A DNA stretch of 64,000 bases from an uncultured Roseobacter sp. (lineage in GTDB: Bacteria; Pseudomonadota; Alphaproteobacteria; Rhodobacterales; Rhodobacteraceae), in contig NZ_CANLNE010000001.1 of assembly GCF_947492555.1 (NCBI RefSeq), positions 186,001-250,000 on the forward strand, read 5' to 3'. Made by a program: the position numbers and the translations under genes. Of the stretch, positions 13,210 to 39,611 are shown piece by piece; within the stretch, counting starts at the first letter, position 1, and each line of letters starts with the position of its first letter. The notes beneath the pieces were generated by a model. The model ran no database searches. It saw only the letters and a program-made list of their open reading frames with translations, and was not told where the DNA came from.

Positions 13210-13212
13210 CCA

Positions 13213-18633: not shown

Positions 18634-18658
18634 ATCCTTGTCCCTCCCAAGACGCGGG

Positions 18659-20311: not shown

Positions 20312-20325
20312 TCTTGTTGAACTTT

Positions 20326-22430: not shown

Positions 22431-22462
22431 GGCGATCCCTCCCAAGACGCATGTGCGGGTTT

Positions 22463-22488
22463 GGTCCGGCGGCACACACCGCCGGACC
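22463..22488 (-). other. Intra-operon hairpin between aglE and aglF
   Basis: GGTCCGGCGG (22463-22472) and CCGCCGGACC (22479-22488) form a perfect 10-bp GC-rich stem with a six-base loop, 15 bases after the aglE stop. There is no T run on the minus strand. Such hairpins after binding-protein genes usually protect the mRNA or partly terminate, giving excess binding protein. Confidence 0.65.
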
Positions 22489-22502
22489 CATGTGCAAGAG
22501 CC

Positions 22503-23858: not shown

Positions 23859-23926
23859 GAGTTCCTCCCGTTGCAATGCCTGTTTCGACATCGTCTTGAC
23901 CATTTTTTGGGCGCAAAGAATCACTT

Positions 23927-23938
23927 CAAAGCGCTTTG
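23927..23938. promoter_or_regulatory. LacI-family operator palindrome in the aglE promoter region
   Basis: CAAAGCGCTTTG is a perfect 12-bp palindrome with the central CG typical of LacI-family operators. It lies 69 bases upstream of the aglE start, in the 257-base gap shared with the divergent LacI gene at 24116. It is the likely binding site of that repressor. Confidence 0.7.
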
Positions 23939-24115
23939 GATGTCTGAAAATTGGAGGAAGGTGTCAAATGTGTCAACTCGCGGTTGGGTTTCTGGACAAG
24001 TTTTCAATGCTCTGAGCCGAGTGGGCACCTCTTCCCGACGTTTCCGCTTTGACCTGCGGAAGCAGGCTGCCTAGGCTGTGATCTGTTTGAGAGTAAAAAT
24101 GAAACTGCAGGTCTT

Positions 24116-25147
24116 ATGAATCTACGCGAGCTTTCAGAACGGCTGAACCTGTCCCAGACCACGGTCAGCCGCGCGCTGAACGGGTACCCGGAAGTTAATG
24201 AGGAAACCCGCAAGCGGGTCGCAGCGGCGGCGGCCAAATTCAACTACCGTCCCAACATCCGGGCGCAAACGCTGGCGACAGGTCGGTCGATGTCCATCGG
24301 GCACATCATCCCCTTCTCAAAACAGAACGAAATGGTGAACATCGTATTTGCGGATTTCATCGCCGGTGCCGGGGAGATTTACGCCCAGCACGGCTATAGC
24401 ATGAGCCTTTCGCTGGTCCGGGACGAGGATGAACTCAACGCTTACCAGGGGGTTGCCGAAAAGGGCGCAGTCGATGGCATCATCGTGCACTCGCCTGCCC
24501 GCGATGATCCGCGGATTTCCTTTCTTTCCAATCTGGACATCCCGTTCCTTGTGCACGGGCGCGCCTCCGAGGTGACAACGCCCTATTCATGGCTGGACGT
24601 GAACAACAAACGCGCAATCGAAACCGGCACCGCCCATTTGCTGGACCTTGATCACCGCCGTATCGGGTTGATAAATGGCGAAGAACGGATGGATTTTGCG
24701 CAGCGGCGGCGCGACGGATATCTGGCGGCGTTGACAGCAGCAGGCATAACACCCGAGACCGCCCTGATGCGCTCCGGCGAGATGAGCGAGCCCCACGGCT
24801 ATGCCTCCGCGCATGATATGCTGGACAGCACGGAACCGCCCACCGCTTTTGTTGCCTCTTCCATCGTATCCGCCCTTGGTGTCAGACGCGCGATTGAAGA
24901 GCGTGGCCTTGTGATGGGACGGGACATCTCGATCCTGTGTTTCGACGATGATATCTCCTACCTTCCCAACGGGCGAACGACGCCTGTTTTCACGGCGATG
25001 CGCTCGTCGGTGCGGGCAGCCGGTCGCCGGTGCGCAGAATTATTGATTGACCAGATCAAGATACCACAACAAGGCATGGCAACAGAGCTCTGGGACGCGG
25101 AACTCATCATAGGCGGCTCTACCGGCCCCTGCCCCAAAGGAAGATAA
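24116..25147 (+). CDS. aglR: LacI-family regulator of the agl genes
   Basis: 343 residues. The N-terminal helix-turn-helix (LSERLNLSQTTVSRALNGYP) is followed by a periplasmic-binding-like effector domain (residues about 60-335). It is divergent from aglE and one base upstream of the GH1 glucosidase gene, so it likely represses both units in the absence of sugar. A palindrome of the right type sits between it and aglE. Calling it aglR rests on position and family, not on direct recognition of specificity. Confidence 0.82.
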   Translation: MNLRELSERLNLSQTTVSRALNGYPEVNEETRKRVAAAAAKFNYRPNIRAQTLATGRSMSIGHIIPFSKQNEMVNIVFADFIAGAGEIYAQHGYSMSLSLVRDEDELNAYQGVAEKGAVDGIIVHSPARDDPRISFLSNLDIPFLVHGRASEVTTPYSWLDVNNKRAIETGTAHLLDLDHRRIGLINGEERMDFAQRRRDGYLAALTAAGITPETALMRSGEMSEPHGYASAHDMLDSTEPPTAFVASSIVSALGVRRAIEERGLVMGRDISILCFDDDISYLPNGRTTPVFTAMRSSVRAAGRRCAELLIDQIKIPQQGMATELWDAELIIGGSTGPCPKGR

Positions 25148-25148
25148 G

Positions 25149-26462
25149 ATGGATTTCAAAAGATCGGACTTCCCGGTGGATTTCCAATTTGCCGCGGCCA
25201 CCTCAAGCTACCAGATCGAAGGTCATAGCTTTGGCGGGGCGGGGAAGACCCATTGGGACACATTCGCCGCGACGCCGGGCAACGTGGTGCGGGCCGAGCA
25301 TGGCGATATCGCCTGCGATCACTATCACCGGATGGAAGAAGACCTTGACCTGATGCAGGCGCTGGGGCTGGATGCCTATCGGTTTTCCACGAGCTGGGCG
25401 CGGGTGCTGCCAGAGGGTCGTGGCACGCCGAATGAGGAAGGTCTGGACTTCTACGACCGGCTGGTCGACGGGCTGCTGGCGCGGGGCCTGAACCCGATGG
25501 TGACGCTGTACCACTGGGAACTGCCCGTGCCGCTCGCCGATCTGGGCGGCTGGCGCAATCCGGACATCTCGCACTGGCTGGCGGACTACACCACCGTCAT
25601 CATGAAGCGCATCGGCGACCGGGTGTTCAGCGCAGCCCCGATCAACGAGCCGTGGTGTGTCGGCTGGCTGTCGCATTTCATGGGCCATCACGCGCCCGGT
25701 CTCCGCGACATTCGCGCCACCGCCCATGCGATGCATCACGTGCTCACGGGCCATGGCCGCGCCATTCAGGCGATGCGCGCGCTGGGGATGAAGAACCTCG
25801 GGGCCGTGTGCAATTTCGAATATGCGCACCCTGTGGATGACACGCCCGAAGCGGCGGCGGCGGCACAGCTTTATGACGGCTATTACAACCGGTTTTTCCT
25901 AGAGGGGCTCTTCAAGGGCGCCTACCCCGGCGACGTGATGGAAGGTCTCGCCCCCCATATGCCAAAGGGTTGGGAAGAGGATTTCGACCTGATCGGCCAA
26001 CCTCTGGATTGGTGCGGGCTGAATTACTACACCTGCAAGCGCATCGCGCCGGTGGACGGCCCCTGGCCCGCGCATGAGGAGGTCGACGGCCCCCTGCCGA
26101 AAACGCAGATGGGATGGGAAATCTTTCCCAAAGGCCTGCATCACTTCCTGACCTGGGTGCATGAGACCTACACCCAGGGCCTGCCGCTCTACGTCACCGA
26201 AAACGGCATGGCCAACCCGGATGAGGTCGGCGTGCCGGATCAGGCGCGCATCGACTATCTGAACGCCCATATCGCCGCGGCACGGCAGGCGATGGCCGAA
26301 GGCGTGCCGCTGGCGGGCTACACCTTCTGGTCGCTGATGGACAATTACGAATGGGCGCTGGGGTACGAGAAACGCTTTGGCCTGATCCATGTGGATTTCG
26401 AGACCTTGGAGCGGACGCCGAAAGCGTCTTATCACGCGCTGGCCGACGCGCTTAAGGCGTGA
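25149..26462 (+). CDS. GH1 beta-glucosidase
   Basis: 437 residues of glycoside hydrolase family 1. The opening FQFAAATSSYQIEG is characteristic, the acid/base glutamate lies in INEPWCVG near residue 165, and the nucleophile in LYVTENGMA near residue 350. There is no signal peptide, so it acts in the cytoplasm. It starts one base after the LacI gene and is co-transcribed with it. Its stop overlaps the 3' end of the convergent peroxidase gene by about 11 bases. The natural substrate is unknown; together with aglA it broadens the locus to both alpha- and beta-linked glucosides. Confidence 0.92.
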   Translation: MDFKRSDFPVDFQFAAATSSYQIEGHSFGGAGKTHWDTFAATPGNVVRAEHGDIACDHYHRMEEDLDLMQALGLDAYRFSTSWARVLPEGRGTPNEEGLDFYDRLVDGLLARGLNPMVTLYHWELPVPLADLGGWRNPDISHWLADYTTVIMKRIGDRVFSAAPINEPWCVGWLSHFMGHHAPGLRDIRATAHAMHHVLTGHGRAIQAMRALGMKNLGAVCNFEYAHPVDDTPEAAAAAQLYDGYYNRFFLEGLFKGAYPGDVMEGLAPHMPKGWEEDFDLIGQPLDWCGLNYYTCKRIAPVDGPWPAHEEVDGPLPKTQMGWEIFPKGLHHFLTWVHETYTQGLPLYVTENGMANPDEVGVPDQARIDYLNAHIAAARQAMAEGVPLAGYTFWSLMDNYEWALGYEKRFGLIHVDFETLERTPKASYHALADALKA

Positions 26463-27740
26463 ACCACACGGGCACGCCGAAGGGCGGGGTATCGACCGAT
26501 GTGCCGGTCAGGCTCTCCAGAAACGCAACGATCTGAGCAATTTCGATGTCGTTGAGGTCGGGCCCACGCGCCGGTACAACCTGCGCCTGACGCGCCATCT
26601 CGCGCCTGTCCGACTGGATGATGAAGTCGGTTGCCGCCAGCCAGGGCACCTTTGGCAGTGCTGCGTCCACCGGTTGCCACGTGGCGCGCATCGCCGCCGG
26701 ATCAAGATGATGACGCACCATCTGCTCCAGCGTCGCATAGGCCCCGTTGTGCCCATAAGGCGCGGTGAGCGCCACATTGCGCAGCATCGGCGTGCGGAAG
26801 GCATAGGCATCCTCGAGGCGATTGCTCTCGCCCATCCGCCCGACGTCACGCGCATAGGGGTCAAAGACCCGTGTCCGGCCGGGCCCAAAGGCAGGCAGCC
26901 CCAGCGCATGGAATTCCTGATCACTCATGAGCGCCCCGGCGTGGCACGTGCTGCACGCCGCCTTGCCGTAGAAAAGATCCATGCCCGCCCTCTGGTCCAT
27001 CGTCAGCGCGGCACTGTCCCCGGCGAGATACTGATCAAAGGGGCTGTCGATGCTGGTCCATTCGATGGTCATGAAGGCCGCCAGCGCGTTGGCAATCTCG
27101 ACGATCGTCACCTCTTCCGGTGTCTCGATGTGATCGAACGCGGCGACAAAGCGCGCGCCGTAGTCAGTTTCCGTACGCACCCGTTTGGCCAGGATCGGCC
27201 AGGCGTTGTCGATCCGGTCATGCACCGCGCCGATCACTTCGTTCTCACCCGGGTTGCCCGCCATCTCGAACTGCGCCACCAACGGAAACAGCGCCTGCGC
27301 GGCCAGCAAGGAGTTGAGCCCCTGTGGCAGCCACTCCTCCGCCGGAGAGTTGAAACCGTTGCCAAAGAGACCGGACGTGCTCAACCGCCCGTCGTGAAAC
27401 ATCACCGTCAGATCGCGCGCGCCGAGGTTCCACAGCCCCGGCGCATTGCGCGGGATGCGCTTGGCGATGCGGGACAGGCCGATGCCGGGGGTGCGCTCGG
27501 GTCCCAGACCCTGCCCGCCTTCTCCGATCCCAAGCGAAAGCCCGTCCCCCGTGCCAAAATCCGGGTGGTGACAATGCGCACAGGAGATATTCCGGTTGCC
27601 CGACAGGATGGTATCGTAGAACAAGGAGTGGCCCAGAGCGGCCTGACCCCGGTCGAAGTCCGGAAAGTCGGTCGCCGTCAGAGGCGGCGGCAAATCCCCC
27701 GCGAATGCGGCGGTTGCGAAACAGGAGAGAAGAACCCCAT
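26452..27740 (-). CDS. Di-haem cytochrome c peroxidase / MauG-family protein with a disrupted or unusual start
   Basis: About 415-430 residues. Two haem-binding motifs, CAHCH near the N-terminus and CSTCH in the middle, and the blocks RNAPGLWNLG and RTPMLRNVALTAPYGHNG identify a periplasmic di-haem peroxidase. The frame contains a signal-peptide-like segment (GVLLSCFATAAFA) but no ATG, GTG or TTG upstream of it for more than 100 codons. One extra G in the G4 run at 27735-27738 would join it to ATG at 27740, giving MGVLLSCFATAAFA. A TTG at 27693 is the only nearby canonical start but would remove the export signal. I therefore give the boundary of the inferred ancestral start; the span is not a multiple of three. 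Its stop overlaps the GH1 gene end. Confidence 0.75.
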
Positions 27741-28209
27741 GCGCGCCATATGTCTTGTGCTTGCGTTTCTTGCGTCCCCAGTCTTTGCGGAAATCGAAGA
27801 GGCGCGCGACATGATGGAAGAGGGCCGCTTTGAGGAGGCCTACGAGGCGCTCTGGCCCGCCGCGCGGTCCGGGAATGCGGATGCCGAGGAGTTGATGGGT
27901 GTCATGTATGCCATGGGCCTTGGTGTGCCCCGTGACGATATCCGGGCGTTTGACTGGTACCTGCGGTCGGCGATGAAGGGACATCCGGGAGCGCAGTCCG
28001 GGGTCGGCTGGTACTATGAAGTTGGGCGCGGGATGCCTGCGCCTGACCTGGTGCGGGCCTACATGTGGTACACGCTGTCCGCGATTGGGGGTGACCCGGA
28101 TGCTGCGATCAGCCTTGAGGAAGTCGTCAAGAAGATGACCGCTGAGGAGATCGAAAAAGCGCATGTTCTCGTGGGTGACTACAAGGTTTGGATGTATCCG
28201 TTCCGGTAA
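27739..28209 (+). CDS. Small exported Sel1-repeat protein
   Basis: 156 residues. A signal peptide (MRAICLVLAFLASPVFA) precedes two to three Sel1-like repeats (AEELMGVMYAMGLGVPRD and AQSGVGWYYEVGRGMPAPD). Sel1 repeats form helical scaffolds for protein contacts. AGGAG lies about 13 bases upstream of the ATG. The start codon shares the CATG palindrome at 27738-27741 with the putative ancestral start of the divergent peroxidase. The partner is unknown. Confidence 0.75.
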   Translation: MRAICLVLAFLASPVFAEIEEARDMMEEGRFEEAYEALWPAARSGNADAEELMGVMYAMGLGVPRDDIRAFDWYLRSAMKGHPGAQSGVGWYYEVGRGMPAPDLVRAYMWYTLSAIGGDPDAAISLEEVVKKMTAEEIEKAHVLVGDYKVWMYPFR

Positions 28210-28293
28210 GGATCGCCTGACGTTTGGCACCGCAATCGTGGCACCTGCACAGGACCGCACCGCCGGGCATATTTTTGGAACAATGAAGCAGAG

Positions 28294-28323
28294 GGAGAAG
28301 GCCCAGATGTGCGGGCCTTCTCC
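28294..28323. terminator. Bidirectional terminator between the Sel1 gene and dctP
   Basis: GGAGAAGGCCC (28294-28304) and GGGCCTTCTCC (28313-28323) form a perfect 11-bp stem with an eight-base loop. It is followed by ACTTTTG on the plus strand and lies 15 bases after the dctP stop on the minus strand. It separates two convergent transcription units. Confidence 0.8.
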
Positions 28324-28337
28324 GACTTTTGTGAGTA

Positions 28338-29396
28338 TCAGTTAAGATCGGCGGCGCGGGCGGCCCCAATCTCTTCTTCGGCTTCGGCCACGGCTGCGGC
28401 CAGCGCGTCAAAAATCTCTTCGCCACGGCCTACGTTGCCTTTGAACCAGTCGAACACCGGGGCAGCGCCTTCCTTGAAGGCAGCTTTCTGCTCGGGCGTT
28501 GGCACGTAGAGGTCCCCACCTTCGGCCACGAACTGCTCATACGCCTCGATGGATTTGCGCTTGGGCGAGGCAAAGGTCGCCTGCTGCAGTGCATAGAAAC
28601 CGTCAACCACCACGCGGCGCATGTCTTCCGGCATCTCGGTGAAACGCGCGTTGTTCATCCACCAGAGCGCGCCCATGTAGGCGTGGCCATCCAGCGTGAC
28701 GTATTTCAGGCCAGCATCCGGGAATTTCATGCCCATGATGTCGGTGATCCCGTTCTTGGAACCCTCAACCACACCGGTCTGGAAGGAGGTGAAAAGCTCG
28801 GGCCATGGGATCGGCGTGGGGGCCGCGCCCAAGGCTTTTACCAGTTCCTGCGGCAGGTCGGCGACGACGGTGCGGATCTTCAGGCCTTCCATATCCGACG
28901 GCTCTGCGATGCGGCGCTTGGTGTTGGCAAAGTTGCGCCATCCGCCTGTGTTGCCGATGGTCATCAGGCGGATCGAGTCGCCAGAATCTTCCAGCGCCAT
29001 GTCACGCATTTTCCGGGTAAAATCGCCCGAGAGAACATGCTCGGCAATCCGGTCGTCGGCCATCAGATAGGGCAGATCGAGCACCTGTACGTAGGGGAAG
29101 ATCCCCGAGGCGCCGCCGGACGTGGACACAAAAATATCGACGGTGCCATCGGCCACACCCTGCAGGCATTCCGCGCCGTTGCCACAAAGTTGCGTGCCGA
29201 TGAAAAGCTCTACCGCGATGGCGCCATTCGAGGCCGCCTCGACGTAGTTCTTGAAGACCACAAGGCCATCGTAATCCTCGTCGTTCTCATTTGAGTTGGC
29301 CGTTGCGCGCAGCGTGTAGTCCTGCGCCGCCGCCGCCATCGCGGTGCCCGCAAGCATCGCCGCCACGGTCAGCGATTTCAGGGTATTTTTGATCAT
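28338..29396 (-). CDS. TRAP transporter substrate-binding protein (DctP family)
   Basis: 352 residues. A signal peptide (MIKNTLKSLTVAAMLAGTAMAAAA) precedes a DctP fold, with FVSTSGGASGIFPYVQVLDLPYL in the first half and the carboxylate-binding arginine region GLKIRTV near the middle. The tail is Ala/Glu rich (AAAVAEAEEEIGAARAA). It is encoded after dctM in an operon with the flavin reductase, aldo/keto reductase and monooxygenase upstream, so it probably captures their substrate. TRAP ligands are usually organic acids; a sulfonated sugar or related acid is inferred from context. Confidence 0.88.
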   Translation of the reverse strand: MIKNTLKSLTVAAMLAGTAMAAAAQDYTLRATANSNENDEDYDGLVVFKNYVEAASNGAIAVELFIGTQLCGNGAECLQGVADGTVDIFVSTSGGASGIFPYVQVLDLPYLMADDRIAEHVLSGDFTRKMRDMALEDSGDSIRLMTIGNTGGWRNFANTKRRIAEPSDMEGLKIRTVVADLPQELVKALGAAPTPIPWPELFTSFQTGVVEGSKNGITDIMGMKFPDAGLKYVTLDGHAYMGALWWMNNARFTEMPEDMRRVVVDGFYALQQATFASPKRKSIEAYEQFVAEGGDLYVPTPEQKAAFKEGAAPVFDWFKGNVGRGEEIFDALAAAVAEAEEEIGAARAADLN

Positions 29397-29420
29397 GTTT
29401 TTCCTCCCATTGGATGTCGT

Positions 29421-30710
29421 TTAGTTTGCAAAACCCGTCAGACGCGGAACCGTCATGGATATGGCGGGTATGTAGGTAATTAAGAAAATCACGAGGATCT
29501 CAACCGCCAGAAACGGCAGGATCGCCTTGGAGATGGTCTCGACCCGTTCGCCCGAGACCGATGAGGCGACAAAGAGCACCAACCCCATGGGCGGTGTCGC
29601 GAGGCCGACGGTCAGGTTCACGCTCATGATGATCGCAAAGTGGATCGGATCGACCCCGAGGCTCACGAAGATCGGGCCAAGGATGGGGCCGAGGATGATG
29701 ATCGCGGGGCCCGCATCGAGAAACATGCCGACGATGAAGAGCAGCAGGTTGATCAGGAACAGCAGGATCAGCGGGTTGCTGGTCAGGCTGAGGACGAATT
29801 CGGCCATGGTCTCGGGCGCGTGGCTGAGGCTCACGACTGTCTTGAAGGCCATCGCGGCCCCCACCAACAGCAGCACCACGGCAGAGGTGATCCCTGCGCG
29901 GTTCAGCACATCCGGCAGGTCGCTGAGCTTGAGCGTGCGCATGACAAACAGTCCAATGACCAGCGCATAGGCCACTGCCACCGCCGCCGCTTCTGTGGGC
30001 GTAAAGACCCCCGCGAGGATGCCACCAAGGATGATCACCGGCGTCAGCAGCGGGAAGAACGCCTTGAGGCTCGCCTGCCCGCGTTCACCCCAGGAATGCT
30101 TTTTCGTGGCGACCGGGAAGTCGTATTTATCCGCCTGGAATTTCACCATCAGCATCAGACCGAGGCCTACCATAACCCCCGGCACAATCCCCGCAAGGAA
30201 CAGCGCCGCGACGCTCTCGCCCATCACATAGGCATAAATGATCATGATGCCCGAGGGCGGAATGATCGGCCCGATCACCGAACTGGCCGCCGTGATGGCG
30301 GCGGCAAAGCGGCGGGTGTAGCCTTGTTTTTCCATCGCGGGGATCAACATCGACCCCAGCGCCGAGGTGTCGGCCACCGCCGACCCCGACAGCCCGGCAA
30401 AGAGCATCGACGACAGGATATTCACATGCGCCAGGCCGCCCCGGAAATGGCCCATCATCGCCTGGGAAAACTCGACCAACCGCATGGTGATGCCGCCCCG
30501 GTTCATCAGCTCGCCCGCAAGCATAAAGAAAGGGATCGCCATCAGCGGGAAGCTGTCCATCCCGTTGTAGAGATTGCGATAAAGCAGCGTGATGTCGCGC
30601 TCCTGCCCGTTCAGCCAGAGCAGGATACCGGGCGCGGCCAGAAGGCCAAAGAACACCGGCAGACCGATCATCAAGAACAGCAGAAACAGCGGAAGGAACC
30701 AGACCAGCAT
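29421..30710 (-). CDS. TRAP transporter large permease (DctM)
   Basis: 429 residues and about 12 membrane segments, with DctM landmarks: PLMAIPFFMLAGELMNRGG, GLSGSAVADTSALGSMLIPAM, and VIGPIIPPSGIMIIYAYV. It is the sodium-coupled transport subunit. It overlaps dctQ by one base (TAATG at 30712-30708) and lies 24 bases upstream of dctP. Confidence 0.92.
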   Translation of the reverse strand: MLVWFLPLFLLFLMIGLPVFFGLLAAPGILLWLNGQERDITLLYRNLYNGMDSFPLMAIPFFMLAGELMNRGGITMRLVEFSQAMMGHFRGGLAHVNILSSMLFAGLSGSAVADTSALGSMLIPAMEKQGYTRRFAAAITAASSVIGPIIPPSGIMIIYAYVMGESVAALFLAGIVPGVMVGLGLMLMVKFQADKYDFPVATKKHSWGERGQASLKAFFPLLTPVIILGGILAGVFTPTEAAAVAVAYALVIGLFVMRTLKLSDLPDVLNRAGITSAVVLLLVGAAMAFKTVVSLSHAPETMAEFVLSLTSNPLILLFLINLLLFIVGMFLDAGPAIIILGPILGPIFVSLGVDPIHFAIIMSVNLTVGLATPPMGLVLFVASSVSGERVETISKAILPFLAVEILVIFLITYIPAISMTVPRLTGFAN

Positions 30711-31300
30711 TATTCAGCCCCCACTTGTTCTTCGAGCGCAATGGGTGGCAGTGCATCTGCCCCGCCCATCATCTTGACGAACGCGCGCAGGATCAGCTCG
30801 ATGTTCACCGAGATCAACATGATCACACCAAAAAGCAGCGAGGCCATCATCCAGCTGCGCGGTACGCGGAACCACGCCTCAAAGCTCAGATCCGTTGGCA
30901 GATAGAGCGAGGCAGTCGTGAATTTCCCTGCAAAACCGGTCACTTCAGACCAGCCGATCTGCATCGCGACGATCAGAACCCCGAGGCTGACAAACAGAAG
31001 AAGAAGCGAGATCAGCGCCCCGATCCGCGCGGGCAGCAACCGCACGACCGTGTCGATCGCCACAAACCCGCCACGACGAAAGGCTGTGGGCGCCATCAGA
31101 CCGGTCATCCACAACATGCAGAACCGCGCCGCCTCGTCTGGCCAGGGCAGCGCATTGTTCAGCACGTAACGATAGAACACCTGAATGAGGATCGCCGTGA
31201 CCATAAGAGCCACTGCCACCACGCCGAGACCCCTGCCCAGTTTGAGCACGGCCTCATTGACCAGCCTGAGCGGTGTCATCACCGCCAGCAATGCTCCCAT
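30710..31300 (-). CDS. TRAP transporter small permease (DctQ)
   Basis: 196 residues with four membrane segments and the DctQ signature region NALPWPDEAARFCMLWMTGL near residue 50. It joins DctM in the inner-membrane complex. About 80 bases separate it from the flavin reductase gene upstream, with no clear terminator, so transcription probably continues through. Confidence 0.88.
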   Translation of the reverse strand: MGALLAVMTPLRLVNEAVLKLGRGLGVVAVALMVTAILIQVFYRYVLNNALPWPDEAARFCMLWMTGLMAPTAFRRGGFVAIDTVVRLLPARIGALISLLLLFVSLGVLIVAMQIGWSEVTGFAGKFTTASLYLPTDLSFEAWFRVPRSWMMASLLFGVIMLISVNIELILRAFVKMMGGADALPPIALEEQVGAE

Positions 31301-31380
31301 TCCGGAGCCTCCTCCCTTGTGCCCGGGTATTCCGGGTCACGACGTGCGGGTTTTCCCCACACGCTCCATTGGTTGGCCTT

Positions 31381-31908
31381 TTAGGCCTGATTGTCAAACC
31401 GTCTGAACCGGCCTTGGCAAAAAATCAGCGCGTCCCCCTCCCGGAACGCAGCTGAGCGCACGCGGCCCAGAACAATCGAATGGTCGCCCGCGTCGTGGAT
31501 CTGGTGGGTGGTGCATTCGAAGCGGGCAAGACAATCGCCCAGCAGCGGCACACCTTCGGCATTGAGCGTCACATCGAGCCCGTCAAAGGCCTGCCCGGAT
31601 TTGGCGAAACCCATGGCGATCTCTTCGTGCTCGATCCCCATGACATGGACCGCAAAATGCTTGGCGGCGATGAAATGGGCATAGCGGCTGGAGGATTTCG
31701 CCGGGCACCACAGCACCAGGGGCGGCTCCATGGAGACGCTGGAGAAGGAATTCGCGGTCATCCCGATGGGACCGGTCGGCGTCTGCGCGGTGACCACCGT
31801 GACCCCGGTGCCGAACTGCCCGAGGGCCGAGCGAAACTGTCTCTGCGTGTCCGGACCCGGCATGAAGCTGTTCAACCGGGCCAGTGTCCGTGTTCCATCC
31901 GCCATCAT
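31381..31908 (-). CDS. Flavin reductase-like protein (FMN reductase of a two-component monooxygenase)
   Basis: About 175 residues of the flavin reductase-like split-barrel family: RSALGQFGTGVTVVT near the N-terminus, GMTANSFSSVSMEPPLVLWCP with the flavin-binding loop, and GLDVTLNAEGVPLL. It would supply reduced FMN to the SsuD-like monooxygenase two genes upstream. Tandem ATG codons follow AGGAGGTGCC, and the start overlaps the aldo/keto reductase stop. In the described sulfo-SMO pathway this position corresponds to SmoA. Confidence 0.85.
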   Translation of the reverse strand: MMADGTRTLARLNSFMPGPDTQRQFRSALGQFGTGVTVVTAQTPTGPIGMTANSFSSVSMEPPLVLWCPAKSSSRYAHFIAAKHFAVHVMGIEHEEIAMGFAKSGQAFDGLDVTLNAEGVPLLGDCLARFECTTHQIHDAGDHSIVLGRVRSAAFREGDALIFCQGRFRRFDNQA

Positions 31909-32795
31909 GGCACCTCCTGACCGTTTGCGGCCTCGTAGAGTTCGAACCACGTCTGGCGGTCCATCTCGACCTTGAACGCATCGCTGAATGTGGCGATGCG
32001 CGACAGGGTGTTGGTGCCCATGACCGGCAGGATGCCCGCCGGATGGGCTAGCAGCCACGCCACGGCGACAGCGGCGCGATCGACGCCCTGTGCCTGCGCG
32101 AGGGCATCCATCTTTTGCGCGACGGCACTGTCGTCGGTCATCAGGCTGCCGCCGCCCAGCGGCGACCAGGCCATCGGGCTGATGTGATGCTGCTGCAGAT
32201 GCGCCAGATCGCCGTTGGTAAAGCAATCGCGGGCGGCGAGGCTGATCTCGATCTGGTTGGTGACCAGCGGGTTGGTCATCGCCGATTGCAGCAGGTCCCA
32301 GTCCCACGGGCGGAAGTTCGACACACCCGCTGCCTTGATCTTGCCGCTCTGGATCAGCGCATCCAGCGCGCCGCCGGTCTCAGCCGCATCCATCATCGGG
32401 TCGGGGCGGTGGATCAGCAGCAGGTCTATCTGCTCGATCCCCATGTAGCTAAGAGAGGCCTCGACGCTCGCCTGAATATGCGCCGCCGAGGTGTCATAGT
32501 ATTTAACCCGCCGGTCCGCATACTTACCGAAGGGCGCGACGATGTCGCATTTTGTCACAATCTCGAGCTGGTCACGCAGGCCGGGGCTTTCCTTGAGCGC
32601 CGCACCCAGCACCTCTTCGGCAGCGTAGCCGCCATAGATGTCGGCCTGATCCATCGTGGTGATACCCTGCGCAAGGCAGGCGTCAATCTTGGCCCGCACA
32701 TGCGCGGGCGAGGTATCGTCGTCATCCGCCAAGCGCCACATGCCATAGACGATGCGGCTGAACTCAACGGTGTCTGAAAGGGTAACACGGTCCAT
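31905..32795 (-). CDS. Aldo/keto reductase
   Basis: 296 residues, a TIM-barrel AKR. The catalytic tetrad can be placed: Asp and Tyr in DQADIYGGY, Lys in IVTKCDI, His in LLLIHRPD. The cofactor site near the C-terminus (PVMGTNTLSRI) is of the NADPH type. It sits between the monooxygenase and the flavin reductase, overlapping both by one to four bases. In sulfo-SMO clusters the matching enzyme (SmoB) reduces 6-oxo-glucose, the product of oxidative desulfonation, to glucose. That role is inferred here from gene order. Confidence 0.87.
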   Translation of the reverse strand: MDRVTLSDTVEFSRIVYGMWRLADDDDTSPAHVRAKIDACLAQGITTMDQADIYGGYAAEEVLGAALKESPGLRDQLEIVTKCDIVAPFGKYADRRVKYYDTSAAHIQASVEASLSYMGIEQIDLLLIHRPDPMMDAAETGGALDALIQSGKIKAAGVSNFRPWDWDLLQSAMTNPLVTNQIEISLAARDCFTNGDLAHLQQHHISPMAWSPLGGGSLMTDDSAVAQKMDALAQAQGVDRAAVAVAWLLAHPAGILPVMGTNTLSRIATFSDAFKVEMDRQTWFELYEAANGQEVP

Positions 32796-33949
32796 CAGCG
32801 ACGGTCTCCGGCGGCAAGAGGGGTGAGCGGCGCGCTCTGCGGCACGCGGCCATAGGCCTCGGGCATAGAACAGGTTTTCAGATGCGGCATCACAAGGCGA
32901 CCGAAGTGTTCGGCCTCGTCGATGTGGGGATAGCCCGAGAAGATAAACGCGCGGATGCCCATCTTCTGATAGGCTTCGATCTCCGAGAGCACCTGATCGG
33001 CAGAGCCCACCAACGCCGCGCCACAACCCGAGCGCGCCCGGCCCACTCCTGTCCAGAGGTGCGGTTCGACGTAACCGAACTCATCGGCAATATCGCGGTT
33101 CTTCGATTGGTGAGACACGCCCAGCGACGTGGCATCGAGCGCCCGTTCGCGGATCTTGCGCCCGTAGTCATCATCCAGCTTGGAGACGATGTAGTCGGCG
33201 TATTCCTTGGCCTCGGCCTCGGTATCGCGCACGATCATATGCACGCGCAGCCCGTAATCCAATGTTCGGCCTTTCTCGGCTGCTCGTTCATGAACGGCCT
33301 GCATCCGCCCGGCAATAGCGTCCTTGGGCTCGGGCCACATCAGGTAAACGTCGCAATGCTCCGCACAGAGATCGAGCGCTGCAGGAGAGTAACCCCCGAA
33401 GTACAGCAGCGGCCCGCCGGTCTGATAGGGTTTGACTGGATCGGTGGTCAGGCCGGTAAAATTGTAGACCTCGCCTTCGTAGTTGATCTCATCTCGGGTC
33501 CAGGCCTGTTTGAGAATCTCCACCACTTCGCGGGATCGCTGATAGCGATAGTTGCTATCCGCCTTCTCGCCCGGGAAATCCGAGCTGATGATGTTCACCG
33601 TCAGCCGCCCTTCCAGCATGTGATCGAGTGTCGCGATGGTGCGCGCCAGCATGATGGGCTGCATCTCGCCGCAACGCACGGCGGCCAGCAGATTGATTTT
33701 AGACGTGATCGGCGCGCAGCCCGCCACGAAACTCAACGTGTCCTGCCCGACCTGATAAGACGACGGACAAAGAATGTTGCGGAAACCCTGCGCCTCGGCC
33801 GTCTTCACAATGTCCGAACAATGCGCCCAGCTTGAGCGCAGATCGCCCTCCGGCACACCCAGAAACTGGTAGTCATCCGAGCACAGCGCGGAAAACCACG
33901 AGACTTCGGCCGCATCGAGATCGGCGGAGGTGACGGGCACAACGGTCAT
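32795..33949 (-). CDS. LLM-class FMNH2-dependent monooxygenase, SsuD-like (candidate sulfoquinovose monooxygenase)
   Basis: 384 residues of the bacterial luciferase-like family, alkanesulfonate monooxygenase branch. Visible blocks include RLTVNIISSDFPGE, GGPLLYFGGYSPAALDLCAE, VYLMWPEP, SKLDDDYGRKIRE, LWTGVGRARSGCGAALVG and FIFSGYPH, which align with SsuD landmarks. It should use FMNH2 and oxygen to split a C-S bond, releasing sulfite and an aldehyde. First gene of a six-gene minus-strand operon (monooxygenase, AKR, flavin reductase, dctQ, dctM, dctP). Its start faces a GntR gene. With the AKR next to it, a sulfosugar substrate is more likely than a simple alkanesulfonate. Confidence 0.85.
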   Translation of the reverse strand: MTVVPVTSADLDAAEVSWFSALCSDDYQFLGVPEGDLRSSWAHCSDIVKTAEAQGFRNILCPSSYQVGQDTLSFVAGCAPITSKINLLAAVRCGEMQPIMLARTIATLDHMLEGRLTVNIISSDFPGEKADSNYRYQRSREVVEILKQAWTRDEINYEGEVYNFTGLTTDPVKPYQTGGPLLYFGGYSPAALDLCAEHCDVYLMWPEPKDAIAGRMQAVHERAAEKGRTLDYGLRVHMIVRDTEAEAKEYADYIVSKLDDDYGRKIRERALDATSLGVSHQSKNRDIADEFGYVEPHLWTGVGRARSGCGAALVGSADQVLSEIEAYQKMGIRAFIFSGYPHIDEAEHFGRLVMPHLKTCSMPEAYGRVPQSAPLTPLAAGDRR

Positions 33950-34020
33950 AGAATTCCCTTTGTCAGGCAGCGGTGATTTCTGTCTTGAATAGCACCGTCA
34001 AAATAGTAGATCAATGGTGT

Positions 34021-34033
34021 ATCAATTTTTGAT
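34021..34033. promoter_or_regulatory. Candidate GntR operator
   Basis: ATCAATTTTTGAT is an inverted repeat (ATCAA-TTT-TTGAT). An extra direct ATCAA copy lies at 34010-34014, within the same short gap between the divergent monooxygenase operon and the GntR gene. Its position fits autoregulation and control of the catabolic operon. Binding is inferred. Confidence 0.5.
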
Positions 34034-34052
34034 GTCGATACGGCCCGAGAGA

Positions 34053-34760
34053 ATGACGCACCCACCCTCCCGCAGCACCGCGCTGCCAAAATACATTCAG
34101 CTGACCGAATTGCTGATCCGCGACATCGACGCGGGCCGCTTGCTTGATGGCGAACGCCTGCCGCCCGAACGCGAGATGGCCGTGGCGCTGGGTGCCTCCA
34201 TCGGCACCTTGCGCAAAGCACTTGCGGAGCTGGACAGAAAGGGGCTGCTGGATCGTGTGCAAGGGTCCGGCAACTACGTGCGCAAACCGCGCAAACCCAT
34301 GGGCGTCTATGCCATGTTCCGGCTGGAGCTGCTGTCGGGCGGCGGCCTGCCGACGGCTGATGTGCTGCAGGTCGACGTCATGCACAAGCCGCGGGATTTG
34401 CCTGCGTTTGGCAGCAGCACGCAGGCCACACGCATCCGCCGCAGACGGTACCTCAATGATGTAGCAATCGCCGTGGAGGAAATCTGGCTCGACGCCAGCG
34501 CGGGCGTGCTGACACCCCAGATGCTGGGTGATTCCCTCTATCAGACCTACCTGTCAGAGCTGAATTTCTGGATCACCCGCGCCGAGGATCGGGTGAGCAT
34601 CAGCGCCCTGCCCGCGTGGACGCCAGACGGGTTTGGCCCGGCAGGCACGCCCTGCGGCTACATCGAACGCTTTAGCTGGGCCGCGGACGCGTACCCTATT
34701 GAATTTTCCCGTACATGGTTCGATACGGACAAATCTGTCTACGTACAGCGGTTGAAGTAA
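34053..34760 (+). CDS. GntR-family (HutC/UTRA-type) transcriptional regulator
   Basis: About 235 residues. An N-terminal winged helix-turn-helix (LPPEREMAVALGASIGTLRKALAELDRKGLLDR, seen in short blocks) ends in GSGNYVRKP, and a C-terminal UTRA effector domain follows. The frame is open from 34014, but ATG 34053, after CCGAGAGA, is chosen because the upstream part overlaps the candidate operator. It is divergent from the monooxygenase operon and nine bases upstream of the Gfo/Idh gene, so it probably controls both. The UTRA fold usually binds a sugar or related metabolite. Confidence 0.82.
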   Translation: MTHPPSRSTALPKYIQLTELLIRDIDAGRLLDGERLPPEREMAVALGASIGTLRKALAELDRKGLLDRVQGSGNYVRKPRKPMGVYAMFRLELLSGGGLPTADVLQVDVMHKPRDLPAFGSSTQATRIRRRRYLNDVAIAVEEIWLDASAGVLTPQMLGDSLYQTYLSELNFWITRAEDRVSISALPAWTPDGFGPAGTPCGYIERFSWAADAYPIEFSRTWFDTDKSVYVQRLK

Positions 34761-34769
34761 GGAAGAAAA

Positions 34770-35864
34770 ATGGGACAGACAACGCGCTATGGCATGATCG
34801 GGTGCGGCATGATGGGCCAGGAGCATCTGAAAAACATAGCCCTCTTGCCGGATACCGCAGTTACGGTGATCTATGAACCGGACGCTGCCATGCGCGCCGT
34901 CGCCGCCGACCTCGCGCCAAACGCCCGTTTTGCCGAGACACTGGACGACCTGCTGGCCGAAAGCGCGCTCGACTGTCTGGTGGTCACCAGCCCGAACCAC
35001 TGCCATGCCGATCAGATGGCAGAGATCGCGGCGCGCAATCCCCTGCCCCTGCTGGTCGAAAAACCGCTGCTGACCAATCCTGCCGACATCCCGCGCCTTA
35101 AGGAGATCGCGGCGGCCTACCCCGCGCCGATCTGGGTCGCCATGGAATACCGGTATATGCCGCCTATTGCCGCCTTGCTCGACGATGTCGAAACCGTCAC
35201 CGGCGGCATCAGGATGCTGAGCATCCGCGAACATCGCTTCCCCTTCCTGCAGAAAGTCGGCAACTGGAACCGGTTCAACCATCAGACCGGCGGCACCTTT
35301 GTCGAGAAGTGCTGCCACTTCTTCGACCTGATGCGCCTGATGATCGGCAGTGACCCGATCCGCGTCATGGCCAGCGCCAGCCAATCCGTGAACCACCTTG
35401 AAGAAACCTATGACGGGGCCACGCCGGACATCCTCGACAACGGGTTCGTGATCGTCGATTTCGCCTGTGGCGCCCGTGCGATGCTGGAGTTGTGCATGTT
35501 TGCCGAAGGCGCACGCTATCAGGAAACCATCGCGGCAATAGGCCCATCCGGAAAGATAGAAGCCTTCGTTCCCGGCCCCACCCGCTTCTGGCCGGACGAC
35601 CTTGGACCCGCGCCCACGCCGATCCTGGAAATCAGCCCCCGCGCCCCCAAACATCCTGAAATGCGTGCTGTTCCAGTCGACCCGGCACTGCTGGCGGCAG
35701 GCGATCACAACGGGTCCACCTTTTATCAGCATCAGCGGTTTCTGGATGTGGTCCGGGGCGTGTCGCACACGCCGGATGTCACCTTTGAAGATGGTCTCCG
35801 CGCCGTGGAACTGGGTATGGCGGCCCAACAGTCGGCGCAAACCGGCCTTGCTGTCGAATTGTAA
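34770..35864 (+). CDS. Gfo/Idh/MocA-family NAD(P)-dependent protein (dehydrogenase or NAD-dependent glycosidase)
   Basis: 364 residues. A Rossmann domain starts with YGMIGCGMMGQEH, with the substrate-orienting lysine in LLVEKPLL near residue 95. The C-terminal alpha/beta domain contains VGNWNRFNHQTGGTFVEKCCHFFDL around residues 165-190, with the His typical of the family active site. It is translated right after the GntR gene. Proteins of this fold include sugar dehydrogenases and also NAD-dependent glycosidases, one family of which (GH188) hydrolyses sulfoquinovosides. Because it adjoins an SMO-like trio and no GH31 sulfoquinovosidase is present, it is a candidate for that gateway step, but a plain sugar dehydrogenase is equally compatible with the sequence alone. 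Confidence 0.85.
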   Translation: MGQTTRYGMIGCGMMGQEHLKNIALLPDTAVTVIYEPDAAMRAVAADLAPNARFAETLDDLLAESALDCLVVTSPNHCHADQMAEIAARNPLPLLVEKPLLTNPADIPRLKEIAAAYPAPIWVAMEYRYMPPIAALLDDVETVTGGIRMLSIREHRFPFLQKVGNWNRFNHQTGGTFVEKCCHFFDLMRLMIGSDPIRVMASASQSVNHLEETYDGATPDILDNGFVIVDFACGARAMLELCMFAEGARYQETIAAIGPSGKIEAFVPGPTRFWPDDLGPAPTPILEISPRAPKHPEMRAVPVDPALLAAGDHNGSTFYQHQRFLDVVRGVSHTPDVTFEDGLRAVELGMAAQQSAQTGLAVEL

Positions 35865-35874
35865 CCCGGGTCGG

Positions 35875-36750
35875 CTAAGGGGAAATCAATTGCACGCCCG
35901 GAATGCGTGCGATGGCGAAAACATCCTCGTCGTAGGTCTGGGTCATTTCGGCCACCAGTTCTTCTGTCCAGCCGGGCATGTCCAACTCCTCCTCTATGGC
36001 CTCTTCGATTGCGAACTTGTCCAGAAACGCCACCATGACGCGACGCTTTTGAATTTCGGTCATGGTCGGATGTTTTTCGAGATAGGCCAGAAAACGGGTC
36101 ATGCCTTCGGGTGCCATAATCTCGCTTAGGAGATCATACTCCCCTTCTATACCGTCGCAGTGATCCATCCCCCCAATCTCGCGGAGAATCTCTGGCCAGA
36201 TCAGCGGGGCATCTTCATTGCACCACACCGTGATCGATATCTTTGGCACCGCTTCCCGTATCCGCAGCAGCGTATCCGACCACCGTACCGCCCGCGGATC
36301 CACCCCGCCCATGAAATCCGCAAGGCCCTCTTTCGAAGATCGCCGATAGGCTTCTGGCAAAAAGGTCGCAGGGTTGCGCAGCCCCATGAAGAGCTCGATC
36401 TGGTCAGTTTCAAATATCTGGGCCATCTGAACCATTCGTTTCGAGGCCTTCGGGTAGATCAACCCCCGCCGTACCGCCAGGCGGCCGGGGCCAAAAAATC
36501 GCCCGTTCGACATGACAACGCGCTCGGCGCTTGCGTGGTCCAATATGGCATCCAGCAGAATTTCCCTTGCGTTTTCAGCCGGTTCACTGATGTCCATAGC
36601 GTCCATGGTGTCGCGCAGTAATCTGCGATATTTGCCAGGTCCCGGGACAACCACGCCGCGCGTTCCGAAAGCTTCCTTGTTTTTCAAAAGACACTTCATG
36701 AGTCGCTCTTCTTCAGTGAAGTGTGCGCCCGTGTGAAAAACCAGTTGCAT
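35875..36750 (-). CDS. Uncharacterised protein, possibly sulfotransferase-like
   Basis: 291 residues, no signal peptide or membrane segment. It opens with MQLVFHTGAHFTEEERLMKCL and includes GVVVPGPGKYRRLLRDTMDA and ELFMGLRNPATFLPEAYRR. The N-terminal FHTGAHFT loop and the later 'LRNPATFLPEAYR' block are reminiscent of P-loop-like sulfotransferase folds, but I cannot identify the family. It is convergent with the Gfo/Idh gene (ten-base gap) and lies upstream of tRNA-Thr. Codon use is like the neighbours. Confidence 0.6.
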   Translation of the reverse strand: MQLVFHTGAHFTEEERLMKCLLKNKEAFGTRGVVVPGPGKYRRLLRDTMDAMDISEPAENAREILLDAILDHASAERVVMSNGRFFGPGRLAVRRGLIYPKASKRMVQMAQIFETDQIELFMGLRNPATFLPEAYRRSSKEGLADFMGGVDPRAVRWSDTLLRIREAVPKISITVWCNEDAPLIWPEILREIGGMDHCDGIEGEYDLLSEIMAPEGMTRFLAYLEKHPTMTEIQKRRVMVAFLDKFAIEEAIEEELDMPGWTEELVAEMTQTYDEDVFAIARIPGVQLISP

Positions 36751-36876
36751 AAAGCTCCGCGCGATTGCATTTGCGTGGTGTCAAACTAGCTTGGGAAACG
36801 TTGGGGTTCAAACGCAAACAAAGGCGCATTTCCCCTCTTGCGCGACGCGCTCAAACTGACTAAACGACCGCGCAGT

Positions 36877-36952
36877 GCCCCTATAGCTCAGCTGGTAGAG
36901 CAACTGATTTGTAATCAGTAGGTCCGCGGTTCGAGTCCGTGTGGGGGCACCA
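36877..36952 (+). tRNA. tRNA-Thr (anticodon TGT)
   Basis: A complete 76-base cloverleaf: acceptor GCCCCTA/TGGGGGC, D arm AGCTCAGCTGGTAGAGC, anticodon stem ACTGA-TTTGTAA-TCAGT with anticodon TGT, T arm with GGTTCGAGTCC, and encoded CCA. Its 3' end is the left boundary of a genomic island. Confidence 0.95.
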
Positions 36953-37028
36953 TTTCACCATATTTTAAAGTCCAGTGACATCCATTTCGGCCCTGTATAT
37001 AAGGGGTTTCATGAAAGTGTTTGTCCAG
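36945..37028 (+). repeat. Left island boundary repeat (attL)
   Basis: The last eight bases of tRNA-Thr and the next 11 bases (36945-36963) are identical to 45732-45750. After a three-base difference, 36967-36987 is identical to 45754-45774, and the similarity continues at about 70% to position 37028. The first identical block includes the tRNA 3' end, as expected for a tyrosine-integrase attachment site. Confidence 0.82.
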
Positions 37029-37051
37029 TTGAGTTTTTTGCAGTCCGCTGA

Positions 37052-37118
37052 CGTACCCCCAGATTGGGGGTCATTTTGGGGGTACGCTGAAACCCGTGAT
37101 GCGGAGCGTACCCCCAGA
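37052..37118. repeat. Arm-type repeats (CGTACCCCCA) in front of the integrase
   Basis: CGTACCCCCAGA occurs at 37052-37063 and 37107-37118, and its core occurs inverted (TGGGGGTACG) at 37077-37086, with a partial inverted copy at 37064-37071. The last copy runs into the integrase start codon at 37118. Related inverted copies lie near the right end at 45646-45655 and 45656-45666. This fits recognition sites for the DUF4102 arm-binding domain and autoregulation of the integrase. Confidence 0.6.
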
Positions 37119-38306
37119 TGCCTCTGAGTGACGCCAAGATTCGAAACCTGAAATCCAAGTCAAAGCCGTACAAAGTAAGCGACTTCGATGGTCTTTTCGT
37201 GCTGGTCAAAGTCAGTGGCTCAAAGTCATGGCGGTTCAAGTACCGCATCGACGGTAAGGAAAAGCTCATTGTGTTCGGCGACTACCCTGCCGTCGGCCTG
37301 AGCAAGGCCCGTGAGTTGCGGGACGCCGCCCGAACAAACCTTGCCGCTGGCCTTGATCCATCAGAACTGAAGCAGGAAGAAAAACTGCGTCGCGCGGAAG
37401 CCAGTGGCCAAACCTTCGAAAAGATAGGTGCAGCCTTCTTGGCCAAGCAGCGCAAAGAAGGAAAGTCAAAAGCCACGCTCGACAAAACCGCTTATCATCT
37501 GAAGCTCGCCAACCGCGATTTTGGGAAGAAACCCATCACTGCGATAACCGCGCCGATGATCCTGCGAGTTCTGCGAAAGGTCGAAGCGAAGGGCAACTAC
37601 GAGACCGCGCACCGCTTGCGCGCGCGCATTGGGTCTGTGTTCCGCTATGCGGTTGCAAGTGGCCTTGCGGAAACCGACCCAACCTATGCGTTGCGCGATG
37701 CTCTGATCCGACCAACCCGCCAGCATCGTTCCGCGATAACGGATCCGACAGCATTCGGTGCACTCTTGCGTGAAATCGACGTCTTTGATGGTCAGACGAC
37801 AACGCGCATTGCTCTTCAACTTCTGGCGTTACTTGCCCAGCGCCCCGGAGAGTTGCGGCATGCCAAATGGAGCGAGTTCGACGAAACAGAAAAAGTATGG
37901 GCCATCCCTGCTGGCAAAATGAAGATGCGCCGCGATCACTTTGTCCCTCTTGCGGATCAAGCGATCAAGTTGCTTGATGAATTGCGCCCTCTGACCGGCG
38001 CAAGCGAATAGTTCTTCCCCTCCCTGCGCTCATGGCACCGACCGATGAGCGAAAACACCATGAACGCGGCACTCCGGCGCATGGGGTATTCCGGCAACGA
38101 AATGACGGCTCACGGATTCCCCGCCACCTTTTTCAACATTGGCCAACGAAAGCGGCCTTTGGAACCCCGACGCAATCGAACGTGCTTTGGCACATGAGGA
38201 ACGCAACGAAGTGCGCAGGGCGTATGCACGAGGCGCACATTGGGACGAGCGGATGAGACTTTCAAACTGGTGGGCTGGATATGTTGATGAACTAAGGTCA
38301 AGTTGA
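37118..38306 (+). pseudogene. P4-type tyrosine integrase, inactivated
   Basis: The ancestral frame encodes about 395 residues: an N-terminal DUF4102 arm-binding domain (LSDAKIRNLKSKSKPYKVSD), a SAM-like core-binding domain at about 100-185 and a catalytic domain. The box I arginine is present (AQRPGELRHAKW). Three lesions follow. A TAG at 38009-38011 sits where an aromatic codon is expected (ASE-stop-FFPSLRSW). The conserved HGFR reads HGFP (CCC at 38120-38122), losing a catalytic arginine. A five-T run at 38129-38133 shifts the frame; removing one T restores TFSTLANESGLWNPDAIERALAH and then the catalytic tyrosine in RRAYARG, ending at the TGA at 38304-38306. The island should not excise with this enzyme. 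Confidence 0.88.
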
Positions 38307-38430
38307 TCCGACATTGAACAACGACACATGAATTATGGACAAATCAGAACAAGTTGCTCGCTTTCTCTGAATACTCACGCAAATTGGCGGAGGTCTGTTC
38401 ATTGGCCCGAACGAACCGGAAATCCCGCCA

Positions 38431-39246: not shown

Positions 39247-39392
39247 GGTTATTTCCTCAGGAAATAGCGGGATTTAATTCTTTTAAAATCATAGGCCTAT
39301 AACTGTTTCCGGGCGGCGAAACCTGTTTCCCCTCTGATTTCAAGCTTTGATCCAGAACCTGATCACATCACCTCACACAAGGATTGATCAGA

Positions 39393-39599
39393 ATGGACAA
39401 TACAGTATTTCCCCAGACCGGCCTCGTACGTCTTTCCCAGATTTTAGCGCCTGCCGGACCCATCCCAGTTTCAAAGTCTGCATGGTGGCAGGGTGTGAAA
39501 GAAGGGCGCTTTCCACAACCACAAAAACTTGGTCCACGCACTACGGTTTGGAAGGTTGAAGACATCCGCGCACTTTTCGAAGGTGACGCTGATGGCTAA
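39393..39599 (+). CDS. AlpA-like helix-turn-helix regulator (excisionase type)
   Basis: 68 residues. The layout TGLVRLSQIL, then VSKSAWWQGVKEGRFPQPQKLGPR, then VWKVEDIRALFEG is the AlpA/MerR-like excisionase pattern. Such proteins control integrase expression or direct excision in P4-type islands. ATG 39393 is chosen over an upstream TTG because AAGGA lies at a suitable distance. The IS remnant begins about a dozen bases after its stop. Confidence 0.75.
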   Translation: MDNTVFPQTGLVRLSQILAPAGPIPVSKSAWWQGVKEGRFPQPQKLGPRTTVWKVEDIRALFEGDADG

Positions 39600-39611
39600 G
39601 TATCCGAACCC

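Follow-up and report, generated by a model that had tools for sequence, protein, structure and literature searches.

The window analysed here, a stretch of 64,000 nucleotides from an uncultured Roseobacter sp. (contig NZ_CANLNE010000001.1, positions 186,001 to 250,000; source assembly GCF_947492555.1, 4.44 Mb in 11 contigs), carries a gene cluster that very probably takes in sulfoquinovose (SQ) and SQ glycosides through a tripartite ATP-independent periplasmic (TRAP) carrier and then desulfonates them. A probability of roughly 0.87 is assigned to this reading. SQ, a sulfonated sugar, derives from the membranes of plants and algae. The reading is based on homology, gene order, residue conservation and co-occurrence across genomes; from these we infer each of the enzymatic and transport steps, along with the ligand and the regulation of the cluster.

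A preliminary description of the window recognised a six-gene run, encoding in order an SsuD-like monooxygenase, an aldo/keto reductase (AKR), a flavin reductase, DctQ, DctM and DctP. All six are present as claimed, on the minus strand, each with a Pfam family match, and the three TRAP subunits all lie above the Pfam gathering scores. The first three genes overlap, the SmoC-like and AKR genes by 1 base and the AKR and flavin reductase genes by 4 bases. The coupling of this desulfonation trio to a TRAP carrier stands, but its extent was drawn too narrowly: the divergent genes for a GntR/UTRA regulator and a glycosidase of glycoside hydrolase (GH) family 188 were overlooked, and they belong to the cluster (Table 1).

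Similarity search and phylogeny both place the monooxygenase with the SmoC chains, as had been proposed. The PDB names of the reference chains are generic; we take 7olf and 7oh2 to be SmoC, and 7bby and 7bbz to be SmoB, of Agrobacterium/Rhizobium. The monooxygenase is 76.3% and 76.0% identical to 7olf (693 bits) and 7oh2 (690 bits), and 34.7% identical to a segment of the SsuD-type chain 7jv3. Alkanesulfonate monooxygenases scored 207 and 194 bits, the nitrilotriacetate-family chain 7e36_B 38 and RutA 34, and the match to TIGR03565 reached 252 of 518 bits. In a tree of 79 rows the protein grouped with both SmoC chains, apart from 7jv3 and from L100 and L101 (the 50% group). Readings of the enzyme as SsuD, RutA or a nitrilotriacetate type are ruled out by the bit scores, TIGR03565 and the tree. 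The closest named SmoC, from an uncultured Roseobacter isolate, is 98% identical.

The AKR scored 447 bits with 7bby/7bbz compared with 217 for the next chain, and together with the flavin reductase it completes beside SmoC the trio of the sulfoquinovose monooxygenase (sulfo-SMO) core. Orthology of the monooxygenase and the AKR to SmoC and SmoB is supported by these comparisons. An SmoC-type monooxygenase and an SmoB-type reductase together have served as the criterion for a sulfo-SMO pathway (PMC13372026), and the cluster encodes both.

The Gfo/Idh/MocA-type protein encoded divergently scored 589 bits with 8zn9 and 370 bits with 8qc2, the latter named as a GH188 crystal structure (PMC11465081). 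The contacts to SQ and the catalytic contacts listed for ArSqgA (K107, Y136, R166, L170, K172, E189, H193 and H321; PMC10755693) are matched at all eight positions by K98, Y127, R156, L160, K162, E179, H183 and H313. A GH31 sulfoquinovosidase was sought across the genome with PF01055 and gave 0 matches, the control giving matches in 6 of 14 genomes. The identification of the cluster as sulfo-SMO plus GH188 is, on this homology, well supported.

In the proposed mechanism, DctP would capture sulfoquinovosyl glycerol or SQ in the periplasm through the sulfonate, using a conserved Arg/Arg/Asn anchor, and DctQM would carry either compound inward. SqgA would free SQ from the glycoside; this enzyme needs NAD and is therefore taken as cytoplasmic. 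With FMNH2 supplied by SmoA, SmoC and O2 would split the C-S bond of SQ, yielding 6-oxo-glucose and sulfite, and SmoB would reduce the 6-oxo-glucose to glucose. GntR would control the divergent operons from a conserved site between them.

The TRAP receptor and its distribution

The AlphaFold model of DctP matches TRAP receptors, with the isethionate receptor IseP (8t9t) at rank 2. The sulfonate site of IseP has been described with Arg156, Arg177, Asn217 and Trp200 (PMC11668362), which correspond in a phmmer alignment to R154, R175, N215 and W198 of DctP; all four are invariant in 32 DctP orthologs from SMO loci and from loci of the sulfo-Embden-Meyerhof-Parnas (EMP) type. The ligand-anchoring arginine of TRAP receptors is thus present as R175, together with R154. 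Carboxylate TRAP receptors in general have such an anchor (PMC4646407), so that it indicates an anion but not which one. The contacts of IseP to the distal hydroxyl, D77 and H244, are replaced by G74 and A243 in DctP, and isethionate is rejected as the ligand on account of these distal differences. The replacement of D77, H244 and Y153 fits a different and probably larger ligand.

The spread of the arrangement was surveyed in 390 Rhodobacterales genomes (the order sample), with cut-offs of E <=1e-100 for SmoC and E <=1e-110 for DctP. SmoC was found in 194 and a DctP ortholog in 155 of the 390; both are encoded in 132 genomes, SmoC only in 62, DctP only in 23 and neither in 173 (Fisher p 1e-31, uncorrected for kinship). 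Among the 132, all 98 genomes with coordinates for both have DctP within 6.5 kb of SmoC. A one-off is ruled out by the order sample. Where the preliminary description saw a variant worth describing, the link itself proved real and recurrent but not rare, the TRAP-fed form being the commoner one in the order sample (132/194).

A contig scan of the best 80 SmoC loci of 576 relatives, which is not a random sample, found DctP in the stretch for 62, which speaks against a chance pairing; 4 of the 18 loci without it are short contigs ending near SmoC or within the TRAP genes. SmoC matches also occur in 29 plasmid records, 11 of them at >=76% identity. Eight of these 11 plasmids were examined, and seven have annotated TRAP genes adjoining SmoC; one of the eight, from Marinovum, has an ATP-binding cassette (ABC) set a few genes from SmoC. 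A Rhizobium plasmid (L104) carries a TRAP-type cluster whose SmoC is 89% identical to 7olf. Ruegeria sp. TM1040 (L102) shares the gene order of the window. On a Qingshengfaniella plasmid (L109, 10001-14307) SmoC is followed directly by TRAP genes, and no SmoB, SmoA or GH188 match was found in its 21 kb stretch, a reduced form.

Among loci of at least 15 kb, an ABC receptor of one family was found in 8 of the 33 without TRAP genes. Mapped on the SmoC tree, the distinction between TRAP and no-TRAP loci needs 12 changes, at least five of which are forced by starred (well-supported) branches, indicating that carriers have been exchanged repeatedly. In a survey at the class level, SmoC was matched at 1e-100 in 21 of 385 genomes, nine at >=76% identity (window included) and 12 at 50-54%; these matches entered the SmoC tree only in part.

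Twenty of the 23 genomes with DctP but not SmoC were retrieved (loci L110-L129). GH188 occurs together with SQ isomerase-, sulfofructosephosphate (SFP) aldolase- and PfkB-type genes in 18 of the 20 loci, a mutarotase-type gene in 15 and a DeoR gene in 13; the family matches in example loci include LacD/DeoC aldolase, PfkB, GalM and aldehyde dehydrogenase. Judged by its families, this gene set is sulfo-EMP-like. Its sulfofructose kinase-type and aldolase-type members are assigned by family only: the aldolase matched solved SFP aldolases weakly (54 bits, compared with 326 for its best chain), and no solved structure was matched by the SQ isomerase-type protein. Relative to the window, DctP in these loci is 71-85% identical and GH188 only 49-54%, so the carrier's history is closer to that of the window than the glycosidase's is. 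Orthologs of DctP in SmoC-less clusters with other SQ genes suggest that the carrier follows SQ and not one pathway. One carrier seems to feed two SQ pathways. That it accompanies two chemically different SQ routes is independent evidence on the substrate, and nothing else argues as strongly that the ligand is SQ or an SQ glycoside. The best DctP tree needs five pathway changes, at least two of them forced by starred branches; a single EMP clade was not rejected on that tree by the approximately unbiased (AU) test (p 0.48).

Several observations weigh against an SQ-importing cluster. The DctP model is moderate (mean predicted local distance difference test, pLDDT, of 78), with residues 198-224, in the pocket half, below 50, and its identity to any of the 50 solved structures listed is only 20-28%. 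Among the sulfonate contacts of IseP (PMC11668362), Y153 and N98 are replaced by Gly and S95 by Thr. Sixty-two of the 194 SmoC genomes are without this DctP, so that the pathway itself can do without the carrier. Two of the 20 SmoC-less loci (L121 and L128) have none of the GH188, isomerase-, aldolase- or PfkB-type genes, and in a SmoC-less locus the match of SQ isomerase type (NF048012) reaches 252 bits, below the curated cut-off of 700. The flavin reductase of the operon is assigned as SmoA by family (PF01613) and position. Sulfite disposal is missing from the account of the cluster; a PF03601 exporter had 0 matches genome-wide, and eight TauE-family matches lie elsewhere in the genome.

The desulfonation genes might act on SQ with the TRAP carrier as a mere neighbour that imports another anion, such as a sugar acid or carboxylate, SQ entering elsewhere, for example through the nearby alpha-glucoside-type ABC system. 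This is improbable. The 62 SmoC genomes without the carrier would suit it, as would the generality of the Arg anchor and the presence at 17530-23924 of an ABC set that includes a GH13 enzyme and has LacI and GH1 genes for neighbours; the adjacency of DctP and SmoC in 98 of 98 genomes speaks against it, and so does a DctP that is 71-85% identical in SmoC-less SQ clusters whose GH188 is only 49-54% identical. A true substrate other than SQ, be it methyl-SQ, sulfofucose or sulfoquinovosyl glycerol desulfonated before hydrolysis, with SQ secondary, is very improbable: enzyme specificity is not readable from sequence and Paracoccus has a sulfofucose pathway, but GH188 retains all eight residues checked, SmoC shares 76% identity with the solved SmoC-type chains, and the described sulfofucose clusters have ABC carriers and other enzymes (PMC12421959).

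Sel1 and di-haem genes beside the carrier

Two further genes lie beyond DctP: a plus-strand Sel1-repeat gene, which converges on DctP, and a minus-strand di-haem gene, which is head to head with Sel1. The Sel1 protein has 82% mean column identity over 23 rows from SMO and EMP loci. The di-haem protein has the fold of di-haem peroxidases and MauG, with PF03150 and two CxxCH motifs both present; it reached no NCBIfam cut-off (TIGR03981, 255 of 340 bits). No conserved Met was found after its second haem motif, the lack of which points, weakly here, to a site like that of MauG rather than of a classical peroxidase.

The di-haem gene, usually beside Sel1, tracks the carrier rather than SmoC. With the ortholog cut set at the gap between 1e-145 and 1e-128, it was found in 102 of 132 genomes with both SmoC and DctP and in 21 of 23 with DctP only, compared with 0 of 62 with SmoC only and 3 of the 173 others; in these last three Sel1 is not beside it. 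Named loci of at least 15 kb, which are not a random sample, have the same pattern: each of the two genes occurs in 47 of 63 loci with SmoC and DctP and in 18 of 20 with DctP but not SmoC, compared with 1 of 33 (di-haem) and 0 of 33 (Sel1) with SmoC but not DctP. Of 121 genomes with coordinates for both, 113 have the di-haem gene within 10 kb of DctP; in the other eight it lies at 25-29 kb (two), at >400 kb on the same contig (three) or on other contigs (three), and Sel1 adjoins it in all eight.

Slightly short of an even chance stands the explanation that Sel1 and the di-haem gene are passengers of the carrier block or serve general peroxide defence, and take no part in SQ uptake. Both lie outside the smo operon, Sel1 being convergent with DctP and the di-haem gene beyond it; 30 of the 132 genomes with SmoC and DctP have no di-haem ortholog, and 6 of the 7 plasmid TRAP loci have neither gene within their flanks, both of which argue against a necessary role. 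The independent-pairs test of carrier and di-haem gene gave three pairs on starred branches and none contrary, and with only three such pairs the phylogeny-aware test cannot reach significance. Mere passengers would sit less easily with the 0 of 62 and 21 of 23 counts above, or with the eight genomes in which the di-haem gene is distant from DctP yet present, with Sel1 still beside it.

It is rather doubtful that DctQMP, Sel1 and the MauG-like di-haem protein form a portable SQ-uptake module of Rhodobacterales, plugged into two unrelated pathways (monooxygenase and isomerase/kinase/aldolase), in which uptake depends in some real way on the di-haem enzyme, perhaps through oxidative maturation of the receptor or of another envelope protein. 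If true, this would put the MauG family to a use new for it, and a functional di-haem/Sel1 link would be a surprise about the envelope handling of SQ.

Conserved element and neighbouring genes

A 21-base element, AATTGATACACCATTGATCTA, lies between SmoC and GntR; even with up to 3 mismatches allowed, the 4.4 Mb genome has no second site. Since the element and the first codons called for GntR overlap, the true start of GntR is probably a later Met. A scan of 108 regions upstream of SmoC, four of which are on short contigs and fall in neither class, found the element at up to 4 mismatches in 66 of 69 TRAP loci and 34 of 35 no-TRAP loci; after shuffling, 0 of 108 regions had it. It occurs in TRAP and no-TRAP loci alike and so belongs to the SMO/SqgA part rather than to the carrier. 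No close copy was found in the SmoC-less EMP-type loci (n=20), the best per locus having 4 mismatches in one and 6-9 in the rest. We infer that the element is an operator. A scan for sigma-70-type promoters over 28100-36900 found none, and terminator-like sites in the region numbered 16, compared with a mean of 7.1 in shuffles.

Table 1 Features of the probable SQ cluster and adjoining carrier-associated genes (positions in the window)
Feature	Position	Strand	Evidence
SmoC-type FMNH2-dependent sulfoquinovose monooxygenase (putative), 384 aa	32795..33949	-	phmmer 693/690 bits with 7olf/7oh2; 76% identity; tree; Bac_luciferase 1.8e-54
SmoB-type aldo/keto reductase, 296 aa	31905..32795	-	447 bits with 7bby/7bbz, next best chain 217; Aldo_ket_red 9.9e-52
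SmoA-type flavin reductase, 175 aa	31381..31908	-	PF01613 (Flavin_Reduct) 1.4e-37; best PDB chain 4xhy; between SmoB and DctQ
DctQ, TRAP small permease	30710..31300	-	PF04290 3.8e-21
DctM, TRAP large permease	29421..30710	-	PF06808 4.3e-121; TIGR00786 above cut-off
TRAP substrate-binding protein DctP, proposed receptor for sulfoquinovose/sulfoquinovosyl glycerol	28338..29396	-	PF03480 8.4e-52; model; anchor residues R154/R175/N215/W198
GntR/UTRA regulator	34014..34760	+	PF00392, PF07702
SqgA-type GH188 NAD-dependent sulfoquinovosidase (putative), Gfo/Idh/MocA-type, 364 aa	34770..35864	+	589 bits with 8zn9, 370 bits with 8qc2; 8/8 residues
Conserved 21-base element AATTGATACACCATTGATCTA, putative operator/promoter, between SmoC and GntR	34007..34027	-	Motif conservation upstream of SmoC
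Terminator-like stem, 11 pairs, between convergent DctP and Sel1 genes	28294..28323	+	T run on plus strand, the Sel1 side
Sel1-repeat protein, carrier-associated, 156 aa, leader-like N-terminus by eye	27739..28209	+	PF08238 6.6e-16
Di-haem CCP_MauG-type protein, carrier-associated, start codon tentative	26452..27738	-	PF03150 3.4e-36; CxxCH at residues 53 and 262

Adjoining the SQ cluster at 17530-26462 are a sugar ABC set with the GH13 enzyme (minus strand) and LacI and a GH1 beta-glucosidase (plus strand). GH1 and LacI were each matched in 12 of 63 TRAP loci (window included), and in 9 (GH1) and 10 (LacI) of 33 no-TRAP loci. At 36877-40106, tRNA-Thr(TGT) is followed by a tyrosine integrase with an arm-binding domain, a lower GC content (0.52-0.55) and an IS3-like transposase fragment; this region, which adjoins the SQ cluster, is likely an integrated element. 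Downstream of the integrase (41008-45176), two proteins are rich in RTX calcium-binding repeats, one with 18 and the other with 9 stretches. Further genes include those for a large surface protein of the cadherin/Big/VWA kind, a protein of the CHASE2-adenylate cyclase type and a set for type I secretion (HlyD, LssB-type ABC and TolC) at 5539-16814, and two TctA-family tripartite tricarboxylate carriers (49005-50546 and 57534-59063), the starts of which are 8.5 kb apart.

Comparison with known systems

Sulfo-SMO is reported to be prevalent in Roseobacter clade bacteria (PMC13372026), and GH188 to be near-universal in the sulfo-SMO clusters of the marine members (Kaur 2023, PMC10755693); both are already published (PMC12890257 as review). 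The enzymes of the window's cluster belong to familiar kinds. The word "TRAP" occurs 0 times in the main texts of PMC10755693, PMC13372026 and PMC12890257, and "transporter" 0, 0 and 2 times, both for other proteins. At the level of titles and abstract beginnings, the papers searched gave no SQ TRAP carrier, no SQ carrier shared by two pathways and no di-haem/Sel1 association; the likeliest places, Liu L. 2023 (ISME J) and Sharma 2022 (PNAS), lay outside that search, and a TRAP carrier may already be described in Liu L. 2023. An estimate of yearly SQ production is 10 billion tons (PMC10755693). A known importer would give a marker gene for SQ uptake in ocean data. It would also add a hexose to the small sulfonates carried by TRAP transporters and would show that the carrier can be swapped independently of the breakdown route, and the route independently of the carrier.

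The window shares with the sulfo-SMO (sulfo-ASMO) system of Agrobacterium tumefaciens the core of SmoC, SmoB and SmoA, with an AKR for 6-oxo-glucose and a flavin reductase partner. The Agrobacterium form has an ABC importer with the SmoF receptor, and the GH31 sulfoquinovosidase SmoI. The window differs in having TRAP DctPQM in place of ABC/SmoF, GH188 SqgA in place of SmoI, and a GntR regulator; no ABC importer with an SmoF-type receptor was found in the cluster, TRAP genes standing in its place. Sulfo-EMP clusters with GH188 share that glycosidase with the window, and the sulfo-EMP-like SmoC-less loci (L110-L129) have the same TRAP, Sel1 and di-haem genes; they differ in a probable isomerase/kinase/aldolase route instead of the monooxygenase, a DeoR-type regulator (13/20) and no close copy of the SMO element. 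MauG, MbnH and the bacterial di-haem cytochrome c peroxidases share PF03150, two CxxCH motifs and the fold with the di-haem protein of the window, which is unlike them in its link to an SQ carrier and in scoring below the NCBIfam cut-offs.

IseP of Oleidesulfovibrio alaskensis is, like DctP, a TRAP receptor whose sulfonate site has the residues Arg/Arg/Asn/Trp (PMC11668362); DctP differs from it in its overall identity of about 24% and in the replaced D77, H244 and Y153. The Roseobacter-clade GH188 sulfo-SMO clusters are very probably of the same type as that in the window, and beyond the main text of PMC10755693 the present analysis adds a survey of the carrier, the conserved 21-base element and the association with di-haem and Sel1 genes.

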